This document shows positions 12,531-38,647 of a DNA stretch of 39,644 bases, piece by piece. The translations under genes and the position numbers were made by a program. Position 1 is the first letter of the stretch; every line of letters begins with the position of its first letter. The notes beneath the pieces were generated by a model that saw only the letters and a list, made by a program, of their open reading frames with translations, searched no databases and was not told where the DNA came from. This stretch comes from Thiohalobacter sp. (GTDB lineage Bacteria; Pseudomonadota; Gammaproteobacteria; Thiohalobacterales; Thiohalobacteraceae): the NCBI RefSeq assembly GCF_027000115.1, contig NZ_JALTON010000050.1, positions 1-39,644 of the forward strand, in the 5' to 3' direction.

Positions 12531-12962
12531 ATGGAAAACCGTCCGGACATTTCCATGCCGCCCAGCGAGGACGAGCTGCTCGCTCACCTGATGGCGCATG
12601 ACATCCAGCCGACCCGCCAGCGCCGCGAGATCGCGCGGGTGCTGTTCGCGCGTCCCCAGCACCTGTCCGCCGACGACGTGCTGCGGCTGGTGAATGCCGA
12701 CGGACCCCGCGCCTCCAAGGCCACGGTCTACAACACCCTGGGGTTGTTCGCCCGCAAGGGCCTGATCCGCGAAGTCATCGTCGACCCGACCCGGGTGTTC
12801 TACGACCCCAACACCCGCGAACACCACCATTTCTACAACGTCGATACCGGGCGCCTGGAGGACATCGATGCCGATGCCTGTGCCGTGCAGGGTCTGCCGC
12901 AGCCGCCCGAAGGCACGGTGGCCGAAGGCGTCGACATCATCATCCGGGTGCGCAACGCCTGA
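12531..12962 (+). CDS. Fur-family transcriptional regulator, cysteine-poor
   Basis: A 143-residue Fur-superfamily protein. The winged-helix part includes IQPTRQRREIARVLF, HLSADDVLRLV and the recognition-helix region SKATVYNTLGLFARKGLI (about 62-79). The dimer/metal part contains TREHHHFYNVDTGRLEDID (about 95-113), with the His cluster used for regulatory metal. The CxxC structural-zinc motifs of PerR and many Fur/Zur proteins are absent: only one Cys (117) is present. This resembles the Irr-like/Fur-like branch, which may sense iron, haem or peroxide; the inducer cannot be read from the sequence. The ATG at 12531 sits on the predicted transcription start; the ATG at 12555 is an alternative. 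A mobile repeat begins at the base right after the TGA. Confidence 0.9.
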   Translation: MENRPDISMPPSEDELLAHLMAHDIQPTRQRREIARVLFARPQHLSADDVLRLVNADGPRASKATVYNTLGLFARKGLIREVIVDPTRVFYDPNTREHHHFYNVDTGRLEDIDADACAVQGLPQPPEGTVAEGVDIIIRVRNA

Positions 12963-13216
12963 CCCGCATATTGCACCAGGGGCTGTGGATGATGGCGGAT
13001 TTGCAGCCGGGCTCGGGGCGGGCTGGTGCTCAAGCCGTAGCCGTCGCTACGGCTTGAGTGAAGCGCCCCCGAGGCCGAGCGAAAATCCGCCAGGGCCGCA
13101 GCAGGAAGCGGGCGGGCACACATCGTACTCCGGGCCAAGTGCAAAAAACCCGGTTCATTGCTCGCCAGGACAACAAGTTGCCTGCCGCCCGCGTCCGCCC
13201 TGGTGCAATATGCGGG
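12963..13216. repeat. 254-bp palindromic element with 19-bp terminal inverted repeats, copy 1
   Basis: The ends are CCCGCATATTGCACCAGGG (12963-12981) and its perfect inverse (13198-13216). Inside, a roughly 100-nt hairpin spans 12993-13092: an outer stem TGGCGGATTT/AAATCCGCCA and an inner stem CTCAAGCCGTAGC (13029-13041), loop CGTC, GCTACGGCTTGAG (13046-13058). A second, diverged copy lies at 28540-28796 and one isolated end at 24476. It begins at the base after the Fur-family stop codon. No transposase is present, so it looks like a MITE-type or REP-like non-autonomous element. It fills the gap up to the tRNA promoter. Confidence 0.88.
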
Positions 13217-13227
13217 CTACCCCTCTG

Positions 13228-13257
13228 TTGCCCGGCTCCGAGCCTATCTTCTATACT
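13228..13257 (+). promoter_or_regulatory. tRNA-Thr promoter
   Basis: TTGCCC (13228-13233), 18-bp spacer, TATACT (13252-13257), followed by a GC-rich discriminator (TCGCGC) of the kind found at stringently controlled stable-RNA promoters. The predicted start near 13264 is 5 nt before the mature tRNA. Confidence 0.65.
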
Positions 13258-24475: not shown

Positions 24476-24494
24476 CCCGCATATTGCACCAGGG
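24476..24494. repeat. Isolated terminal inverted repeat of the 254-bp element
   Basis: CCCGCATATTGCACCAGGG identical to the ends of the element at 12963-13216. The bases that follow (CGGGCGG) resemble the inverted right end of the full copies rather than the left end. No inner part and no partner end are present nearby. It lies 17 bp upstream of the phoB Pho box. Confidence 0.8.
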
Positions 24495-24510
24495 CGGGCG
24501 GTCTCGCCTC

Positions 24511-26725: not shown

Positions 26726-27700
26726 ATGGCAATGAAGAAGCTGATGCTGGCTCTGGGCATGGCTACGGCCGGTTTCATGGCCCAGCAGGCCGCTGCCGGA
26801 GTCGATGTCGATCCGGCGCTCCCCGACTACAGCAAGGCCAGTGGCGTGTCCGGCAACCTGTCCTCGGTGGGGTCGGATACGCTGGCCAACCTGATGACGT
26901 TGTGGGCGGAGGAGTTCAAGCGCGTCTATCCCAACGTCAACATCCAGATTCAGGCTGCCGGTTCCTCTACCGCGCCGCCCGCGCTCACCGAGGGCACGTC
27001 CAATCTCGGCCCCATGAGTCGCAAGATGAAGGACAAGGAAATTGCCGCCTTCGAGAAGAAGTTCGGTTACAAGCCCACTGCGATCCGCGTGGCCATCGAT
27101 GCGCTGGCCGTCTATGTGCACAAGGACAACCCGATCAAGGGGCTGACCATTCCCCAGGTCGATGCCATCTTTTCCTCCACCCGCAAGTGCGGCTACCCGG
27201 AAGACATCACCCGCTGGGGACAGCTTGGCCTGAGCGGTGCCTGGGAGAATCGCCCGATTCAGCTCTATGGGCGCAACTCGGTTTCCGGGACCTATGGTTA
27301 CTTCAAGAAGAAGGCGCTGTGCAAGGGTGATTTCAAGAACAACGTCAACGAGCAGCCGGGTTCGGCCTCGGTGGTGCAGTCGGTATCCAGCTCACTGAAC
27401 GGTATCGGCTACTCCGGCATCGGCTACAAGACCTCGGGAGTACGTGCCGTGCCACTGGCGAAGAAGGAAGGTCAGCCCTTTGTGGAAGCCACCGGCGAGA
27501 ACGCCATCAAGGGCAAGTTTCCCCTGGCCCGTTTCCTGTACATCTATGTCAACAAGCACCCCAACAAGCCGCTGCCACCGCTGGAGCGCGAGTTCCTGAA
27601 ACTGGTGCTGTCGAAGACCGGTCAGAAGGTGGTGGTCAAGGATGGCTATATCCCGCTGCCGGCTTCGGTGGCCCAAAAGGAACTGGCCAAGCTGCAGTAG
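26726..27700 (+). CDS. pstS: Periplasmic phosphate-binding protein PstS
   Basis: A 324-residue substrate-binding protein with a signal peptide (about 1-24, cut after QQAAA). The mature start [40 protein letters not shown] and [11 protein letters not shown] are the phosphate-loop segments of the Pseudomonas-type PstS, which differs from E. coli Pst[19 protein letters not shown] is the second ligand region. It delivers phosphate to PstCAB. The usual next gene, pstC, is about 5 kb away, beyond PilZ, ppx and ppk. The ATG at 26726 follows AAGGAGAT. A terminator follows at 27725. Confidence 0.96.
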
Positions 27701-27724
27701 CAGGGCACAGTATTCTCGCAATCG

Positions 27725-27757
27725 ACGGCCCCGCTTCTGCGGGGCCGTTTTCCGTTT
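27725..27757 (+). terminator. pstS rho-independent terminator
   Basis: CGGCCCCGC (27726-27734), TTCT loop, GCGGGGCCG (27739-27747), then TTTTCCGTTTT. A strong stem with a T-rich tail, 25 bp after the pstS stop. Confidence 0.9.
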
Positions 27758-27817
27758 TGGCGCAGGACAGTTATTAGTCGTCTCACAATTGTCTGAACAT
27801 GGAAGTCCTGTGAATTC

Positions 27818-27908
27818 GTAGGATGGGCAAAGGAACGCAGCGACGTGCCCATCAGCATCCCGTGACCGTCATGATGGGCACGGCCCTTCGGGCCTTTGCC
27901 CATCCTAC
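27818..27908. repeat. 91-bp nested inverted repeat (BIME/REP-like)
   Basis: Outer arms GTAGGATGGGCAAAGG (27818-27833) and its perfect inverse (27893-27908). Inner arms CGTGCCCATCA (27844-27854) and TGATGGGCACG (27872-27882). Each half alone can fold through GATGGGCA/TGCCCATC, so it is a pair of inverted REP-type units. It lies between pstS with its terminator and the duplicated pstS tail. Confidence 0.85.
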
Positions 27909-27913
27909 CAAGT

Positions 27914-28012
27914 CTGGTGTTGTCGAAGACAGGTCAGAAGGTGGGGGTCAAGGATGGCTATATCCCGCTGCCGGCTTCGGTGACCCAAAAGGAACTGGCC
28001 AAGCTACAGTAG
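27914..28012 (+). pseudogene. Duplicated C-terminal fragment of pstS
   Basis: This stretch encodes [20 protein letters not shown], then [12 protein letters not shown] and a stop, and matches the last 32 codons of pstS (27602-27700) with only a few substitutions (for example Val to Gly and Ala to Thr). The frame is still open, but there is no start codon, ribosome site or 5' part, so it is not a gene. It begins 6 bp after the REP-like element and is followed by a second copy of the pstS terminator. It is the remnant of a partial duplication or of a former second pstS. Confidence 0.9.
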
Positions 28013-28036
28013 CAGGCGCCGGTTTCGGCGACAGGG

Positions 28037-28064
28037 ACGGCCCCGCGCGAGCGGGGCCGTTCTT
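28037..28064 (+). terminator. Second copy of the pstS-type terminator
   Basis: ACGGCCCCGC (28037-28046), GCGA loop, GCGGGGCCGT (28051-28060), then TCTTG. The same stem as the pstS terminator with another loop and a weaker T tail; it belongs to the duplicated pstS tail. Confidence 0.75.
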
Positions 28065-28442: not shown

Positions 28443-28539
28443 GGTATTCCTCCCTCGGCATTTCCCTTTGCCGGTTTTTCGTCAGCAGGAAGAAATCCAG
28501 CAAGAATGGTGCCAGTCTTCCTGTCCCCTCACCGACTAG

Positions 28540-28796
28540 CCCGCATATTGCACCAGGGGCTGCGGATGATGGCGGATTTGCAGCCGGGCTCGGGGAGGGC
28601 TGGCGCTCAAGCCGCAGCCGTCGCTACGGCTTGAGTGAAGCGCCCCCGAGGCCGAGCGAAAAAAATCCGCCAGGGCCGCAGCAGGATGCGGGCGGGCACA
28701 AATCGTACTCCGGGCCATGGGCAAACAACCCGATCCATTGCCCGCCAGGACAACAAGTTGCCCGCCGCCCGCTACCGCCCTGGTACAATATGCGGG
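28540..28796. repeat. 257-bp palindromic element, copy 2
   Basis: The ends are CCCGCATATTGCACCAGGG (28540-28558) and its inverse with one mismatch (28778-28796); TAG before and CTA after extend the inverted repeat to 22 bp. The inner hairpin is conserved: TGGCGGATTT at 28570, and CTCAAGCCGCAGC-CGTC-GCTACGGCTTGAG in pieces at 28606-28635. It differs from copy 1 by scattered substitutions and three extra A's. It fills most of the gap between the PilZ gene and the ppx promoter. Confidence 0.88.
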
Positions 28797-28860
28797 CTAT
28801 CCGTCCGGCCCCTGTTTCTACTATAGTCCCTGCGGGCATCGCTTCCAGGACGCCATCGCG

Positions 28861-38401: not shown

Positions 38402-38421
38402 CGGATGTCGTGGTTTGACGG

Positions 38422-38647
38422 ATAGCCACGGTATCCACCGAATCCACGGAAACCGTCAATGGCCTGTCCGGTTCCCTGCCGTGAGTGCCGAATGATCGTT
38501 GCCGTGGATGCAGTGGGTGCAGTGGCCGTCCAGATGATGATAGCCACGGTATCCACCGGACCCACGGAAACCGTCGATCGCGTGTCCGTTTCCCTGCGGT
38601 TAGCGCCGAACAGTTGTTTCCGTGGGTTCAGTGGGTGCAGTGGCCGT
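38422..38647. repeat. Tandem pair of palindromic repeats, 118-bp period
   Basis: ATAGCCACGGTATCCACCG starts both copies (38422 and 38540); each runs about 108 bp and ends GTGGGTGCAGTGGCCGT (ending 38529 and 38647). Within each copy the left arm (near 38424-38453) is an imperfect inverse of the right arm (near 38498-38526), with core CCACGG paired with CCGTGG. No gene is found in this 288-bp phoU-argF gap. It is probably a REP/MITE-type non-coding repeat. Confidence 0.85.

Follow-up and report, generated by a model that had tools for sequence, protein, structure and literature searches.

A transposase-less Thiohalobacter element with IS1380-type ends and a covarying hairpin shared across genera

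Bacterial miniature inverted-repeat transposable elements (MITEs) are usually regarded as short-lived, each derived by deletion from a single insertion sequence. Among repeats that carry structure, NEMIS/Correia and ERIC sequences come close to the element considered here, as they are short, have terminal inverted repeats (TIRs) and form long stem-loops in transcripts, with effects via RNase III or RNase E, as described in the accessible parts of PMC10969869 and PMC2229807. ERIC is 127 bp long and has a short TIR with TA at the termini (PMC2229807, accessible part). The CIR repeats of Caulobacter and Brucella consist of two hairpin arms and a linker with a conserved RNA fold, according to the same part of that source (PMC2229807), and the available sections of PMC3733652 give the REP length as 20-40 bp. 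The IS1380 family of insertion sequences is unmentioned in the main text, as available, of a 2024 review of prokaryotic MITEs (PMC10969869), and the accessible portions of literature pairing IS1380 with miniature inverted-repeat elements yielded no description of such elements.

The window (the whole stretch of Thiohalobacter sp. DNA that was analysed, 39,644 nucleotides) contains a 254-bp unit initially annotated as a MITE-like or REP-like element with a perfect 19-bp TIR, a hairpin of about 100 nt with stacked stems, and a second full copy. The perfect TIR (CCCGCATATTGCACCAGGG) is indeed present at the ends of 12963-13216, as is the second copy at 28540-28796, which has AAAAAAA in place of AAAA and one mismatch in its right-end TIR. 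The hairpin exists too, while its size had to be revised: it takes up 121 nt (12982-13102) and is followed by a weaker second arm. The features are:

12959-12962, no strand: left flank of copy 1, CTGA, where the 4-bp target duplication is located; includes the TGA stop of a Fur-family gene
12963-12981, plus strand: left TIR of copy 1, from comparison of the terminal repeats
12982-13102, plus strand: module A of copy 1, the conserved 121-nt hairpin (covariance-model match 12979-13106, 122 bits)
13103-13197, plus strand: module B of copy 1, the variable second arm, from comparison of own-genome copies
13198-13216, minus strand: right TIR of copy 1, from comparison of the terminal repeats
13217-13220, no strand: right flank of copy 1, CTAC, at the target duplication position
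24476-24494, plus strand: lone TIR end, a remnant of the element family that the initial annotation did not include; the bases that follow resemble the right end read inward
28536-28539, no strand: left flank of copy 2, CTAG (right flank CTAT at 28797-28800)
28540-28796, plus strand: copy 2, full length 257 bp, with a PilZ-domain gene on one side and ppx/gppA on the other
28556-28686: hairpin of copy 2 (covariance-model match, 107 bits)

By size and ends the element is not ERIC (features of ERIC as in the available text of PMC2229807), and NEMIS/Correia, like ERIC, have other ends, sizes and insertion sites. CIR repeats share with it two linked hairpin arms and a conserved RNA fold, but are listed without a TIR in the table of PMC2229807, whose accessible part places them in Caulobacter and Brucella only. 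Likeness to REP/BIME sequences (GTAG and CGTC families) is limited to interspersed, mostly intergenic palindromes: the element is not a GTAG- or CGTC-tagged palindrome of 20-40 bp (length from the available sections of PMC3733652), but a unit of about 254 bp with 19-bp TIRs and target-site duplications. Thus the REP-like half of the initial annotation falls away, whereas the MITE-like half is borne out by many copies, 4-bp duplications, empty sites and matching ends of IS1380 elements.

In the window, the 19-mer TIR occurs five times (up to three mismatches) against 0.01 expected from shuffles, and the element folds far beyond its own shuffles on either strand (z about -10.5). A search of the own genome (G000; 2.65 Mb in 63 contigs) for the 19-bp end gave 132 ends (65 forward and 67 reverse, up to two mismatches), while the reversed control pattern gave none. 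From 128 distinct ends (up to three mismatches) we obtained at least 40 two-ended elements, 23 of them 250-257 bp and 17 of them 73-160 bp long; these counts are lower bounds, since some contigs begin inside a copy and further copies have likely been missed. The lengths of the 250-257-bp copies fall in all three frames, and no transposase lies inside. The short forms include B-only types and one A-only type, which means that the element is built from two hairpin modules. Some arrangements are more complex. At 1501-1777 of locus L016 of the own genome, two back-to-back elements share a single CTAG, as if one had inserted at the other's duplicated target, and L001 resembles this arrangement; in L074 (1502-2180) of another genome, G001, a single left end precedes three right ends spaced at 216 bp, so that the right part forms a tandem array. 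The remnant TIR of the window (24476-24501) lies 41 bp past a CBS-domain gene, ahead of a response regulator gene (Response_reg and Trans_reg_C), and is flanked by TTGA.

The adjoining four bases on the outer side of each TIR usually read CTAG or TTAA (YTAR). Left and right flanks match exactly in 19 of the 40 own-genome elements, whereas shuffling of the right flanks gave 5.5 matches on average and never more than 12. Five matching pairs (CTTG, ATAG, CTAT, CTTA, and TTCA) are neither CTAG nor TTAA; hence, a mere preference for CTAG is insufficient, and the flanks reflect target duplication. Exact duplications also flank 40 of 93 elements from other genomes, a few of these 93 being overlapping or doubtful pairs. 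Both window copies have flanks that are diverged pairs, CTGA and CTAC for copy 1, CTAG and CTAT for copy 2. Decayed target sites of the own genome often read CCAG or CTGG for CTAG, a T-to-C bias that would presumably fit very-short-patch repair.

Copy 1 starts directly after the TGA stop of the Fur-family gene, as had been described, while 11 nt separate its right end from a sigma-70-like promoter of tRNA-Thr (-35 at 13228, -10 ending at 13257). The initial annotation proposed that the element could affect both transcripts; stop codon and promoter are outside it. Empty sites, expected in relatives if the element is mobile, were found at both loci, in five genomes for fur/tRNA-Thr and in seven for pilZ/ppx. 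The Fur-family gene (PF01475) was located in seven relatives, and in five of them tRNA-Thr(CGT) follows 54-80 nt past the fur stop, with neither TIR nor hairpin between. In G002 tRNA-Thr is nearby and the fur frame extends into it, and the fur locus of G010 has no tRNA. The corresponding distance in the window is 306 nt, or 48 nt minus the element and one duplication. The last bases of fur in G001 (cgcaacgcctga) are identical to those in the window, and relatives keep the stop here; the stop codon is therefore the gene's own, and the element inserted at it. The genes flanking copy 2, pilZ (PF07238) and ppx (PF02541), are divergent and without a TIR between them in all seven relatives examined (of nine with ppx, L390 and L391 being left out); their spacing is about 205-341 nt there, judged by tblastn ends, against 497 nt in the window, or 236 nt minus the element and duplication. 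By a crude gene caller, which missed fur itself, 22 of the 23 long copies are intergenic, and their neighbours show no orientation bias (+- seven, -+ five, -- five, ++ four, one side unknown in two). A scan for internal promoters gave small z-scores relative to shuffles, inconsistent from genome to genome.

A query with 30 bases of the end led to plasmid 2 of Polaromonas JS666, on which such an end and an IS1380 transposase annotated as ISPosp7 are 185 bp apart. A protein search with this transposase found relatives in 11 of the 369 genomes of the class. At least one such end (up to five mismatches) is present at all 17 loci with ISPosp7 relatives, and both are present at ten. Ten IS1380 elements could be laid out (ISPosp7 and nine others), seven with identical CTAG flanks, and one end of L264 (CCCGCATATTGCACCA) equals the first 16 bases of our element exactly. 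The IS1380 elements (ISPosp7, L263-L275) thus share with it a TIR of the form YTAR|CCCG(C/G)AT..TT(G/T)CAC and CTAG duplications, but are 1.57-1.76 kb long, carry a transposase gene and give no match to the hairpin. The element, in turn, has two traits of the family, its type of TIR and a 4-bp YTAR duplication. Judged from these sequence matches, the IS1380 family is the likely donor of its transposase.

A transposase with matching ends, which the initial annotation had suggested looking for, therefore exists in IS1380 elements elsewhere, while the own genome has none: the Pfam model PF13701 (DDE_Tnp_1_4) has no match in it and hence none in any copy, meaning that the element is not itself an IS1380 element and would depend on one. 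In G001, PF13701 gave nothing above the Pfam cut-off and four hits below it, coinciding with hits of DDE_Tnp_1. The genomes that bear the hairpin and those with an ISPosp7-like transposase overlap in only two cases. We read this as a partner that has been lost, is missing from the assembly, or is present only at times. Other candidates were rejected: DDE_Tnp_1 transposases are absent from the own genome, and the 13 in G001 have ends that do not match; DDE_5 is absent from five genomes; and the first PF13701 hits, of which five of the eight loci were inspected, do not have these ends. Eight inspected cases of TIR pairs 0.5-3.5 kb apart (116 pattern loci) contained unrelated ORFs and no recognisable transposase. 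The element had no blastn match in phages and plasmids, and the exact pattern none in viral contigs, where a shorter pattern occurred in three contigs, one of them (L259) with a piece of an ISPosp7-like transposase. Openly available literature contained no report of the string that starts the TIR together with a transposase, nor of the apical string of the hairpin.

In other genomes, elements with the same ends are very different in sequence yet similar in fold. In most elements with the apical motif TAGCCGTAGCTA, the hairpin spans positions 19-20 to 140-141, and some hairpins are longer through an insert. The motif stands at 75-76 and is followed by TTGAGTGAA; both occur, within the allowed mismatches, in 56 of the 100 elements scanned. 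An alignment of 22 of 41 hairpins (A1; left out were 16 of G001, L157, L161, and L026) was folded by RNAalifold into 35 pairs, 23 of which are changed on both sides. In A1, 94.8% of cells are paired, and the covariation is 0.466, against 0.194 in shuffled alignments (500 shuffles never reached the observed value) and no more than 0.063 in slid ones. The covariance model R1, built for the 121-nt hairpin, also matched hairpins of G001 outside its training set over all 129 positions. In a second alignment, with one hairpin from each of 30 genomes (A5), 93.0% of cells are paired, 33 of 35 pairs are changed on both sides, and the covariation is 0.652 (0.193 shuffled, at most 0.097 slid) at a mean identity of 56%; this alignment was fitted to R1, with most rows at or near the model length, and includes the own genome and G001, so that it may overlap the source records of A1. 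The suspected covariation in the stems is thus seen across genomes and hardly at all among own-genome copies (6 of 82 pairs). Within the own genome, divergence is 4.9% in the hairpin, 8.5-9.0% in the TIRs and 15.8% in the rest; as it is lowest in the hairpin, this above all is kept in spreading lineages. Rfam 15 matched only tRNA in the window, and in seven loci of other genomes it gave six matches, all below the gathering score. As to module B, in L107, L126, L199, and L207 a motif similar to GTACAGTTTGTAC often lies some 10-20 nt beyond the hairpin; this short inverted repeat could be a protein site.

The model R1 (E ≤ 1e-6) matched 30 of the 369 genomes of the class, in 26 of 272 genera; at most nine candidates were scored per genome, and the copy numbers in this search are therefore lower bounds. 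In a sample of the phylum it matched 6 of 398 genomes, namely the own genome and five genera of one family outside the class. Although the 30 loci of the class had been retrieved by the hairpin alone, with the TIR unused, 26 of them have a TIR-like 16-mer (up to five mismatches) at the expected place, compared with 241 of 12,000 random windows (2%). By eye, L357 and L363 have a degenerate TIR pair, L364 and L366 show no TIR, and L373 has a doubtful left end. Outside the class, the left end is found in seven of eight hairpin loci, the exception being L393. We compared the ends of 28 elements, comprising 26 of the 30 class loci (L356, with its right end off the contig, L364 and L366, without a TIR, and L373, with its unclear left end, were left out) and two of the five genera outside. 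The two TIRs of one element differ at 1.61 of 16 positions on average, against 5.10 between elements, and 5,000 shuffles never fell below 3.82; in 15 of the 28, a known IS1380 end from the set of ten elements lies within one mismatch. Since the hairpin is shared while the ends differ, the core is old, whereas the ends appear to change with the transposases. The element is a long-lived structured MITE family.

Taken together, the element is probably a MITE dependent on IS1380 and moved in trans, in which selection on the fold, most likely in RNA form, maintains the hairpin. An IS1380-family transposase would act in trans on the 19-bp TIRs of the non-autonomous element, which would insert at YTAR, mostly CTAG or TTAA, with duplication of 4 bp. 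The cargo would be the 121-nt hairpin instead of a decayed transposase gene. The length of this hairpin, its distance from the left TIR and its internal loops are fixed, and the selected fold would most likely be that of RNA of the strand running from the hairpin end to the other end (A->B). This strand has the better fold of the two in 22 of 22 and 29 of 30 sequences; the mean difference is 13-14 kcal/mol, of which composition explains 5.6-7.4 (shuffled -5.6 to -7.4). In paired columns, G-U cells exceed A-C cells by 28:12 in A1, 102:39 in A3, 46:18 in A4 and 42:17 in A5 (23:10 distinct), and at pairs predicted on both strands the ratios fall to 16:10 and 29:11 (distinct 17:9 and 13:8), a modest excess counted over related sequences. 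We read the predicted energies and the G-U excess as favouring RNA of the A->B strand; an RNA role of the hairpin is likely. Our guess as to this role, with modest confidence and by analogy with ERIC and NEMIS, is that the hairpin arises when transcripts read through the element and that it controls how stable these are or how they are processed. The lack of orientation bias counts against a role tied to one neighbouring transcript.

Alternatively, the hairpin may be kept as a DNA form, a cruciform or a single strand, which juxtaposes the TIRs or serves as a binding site for the transposase, with RNA uninvolved. Its constant distance from the left TIR and the lack of orientation bias relative to genes would agree with this, and a role in mobility would explain why the hairpin is conserved above the rest of the element. 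However, R1 found no hairpin at 18 IS1380 loci, which are expected to use the same kind of enzyme (L251-L258 and L276-L279 are outside this set), the A->B strand has a better fold than the opposite one in 51 of 52 sequences, and G-U exceeds A-C. We therefore regard a DNA form as rather unlikely.

Long inverted repeats are prone to arm correction by template switching, and such switching could restore complementarity between the arms without selection. The lower divergence of own-genome hairpins relative to the rest of the element is what one would see in that case. Still, template switching would erase the internal loops, while these persist at constant places and keep the same bases, which are not complementary (TGGA facing TGAA, GA facing GA), among sequences that are 30-92% identical. 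One of them, CGAAA/TTGAG, presumably fits tandem G.A pairs; in the window copies, it is replaced by the ordinary pairs CTCAAG/CTTGAG. Moreover, the hairpin length is steady at 121-122 nt in most sequences, and the folding advantage of the A->B strand is contrary to the lack of strand preference that template switching predicts, all of which makes this disfavoured explanation improbable. Least probable of all is a recent MITE of the ordinary kind, formed from an IS1380 element by internal deletion and with unimportant stems, for which the typical TIR, duplication and multi-copy state and the 99.6% identity of some copies speak, but whose interior would not be expected to be absent from the 18 IS1380 loci and common to 26 genera of the class sample and five outside it, nor its TIR types to differ between elements while matching within each.

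Within the preferred reading, in which IS1380 moves the element and selection keeps the fold, we tentatively consider a stronger version, which is quite possible: a mobile structured-RNA gene, in which an ancient 121-nt RNA would persist across proteobacterial classes in a transposase-less capsule that swaps its TIRs to suit the IS1380 subgroup at hand. In that case, no set of ends and no transposase that it uses would last as long as the RNA core. The parts of the system (MITEs, IS1380, hairpin repeats) are known, while a covarying MITE core that spans classes and occurs with several types of IS1380 ends was not found in the literature searched or in Rfam 15. Thus, the element provides a candidate RNA family absent from Rfam and a non-autonomous lineage seemingly outlasting its transposases, and what the interiors of MITEs are for becomes directly testable.

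The window contains other repeats. At 27602-28061, two 148-bp direct repeats (86%) copy the 3' end of a phosphate-binding-like protein gene, and a GTAGGATGGGCAAAG hairpin (27812-27914) lies between them, so that the gene tail is duplicated around another palindromic repeat. A tandem pair of 109-bp direct repeats (85%) is found at 38421-38647.
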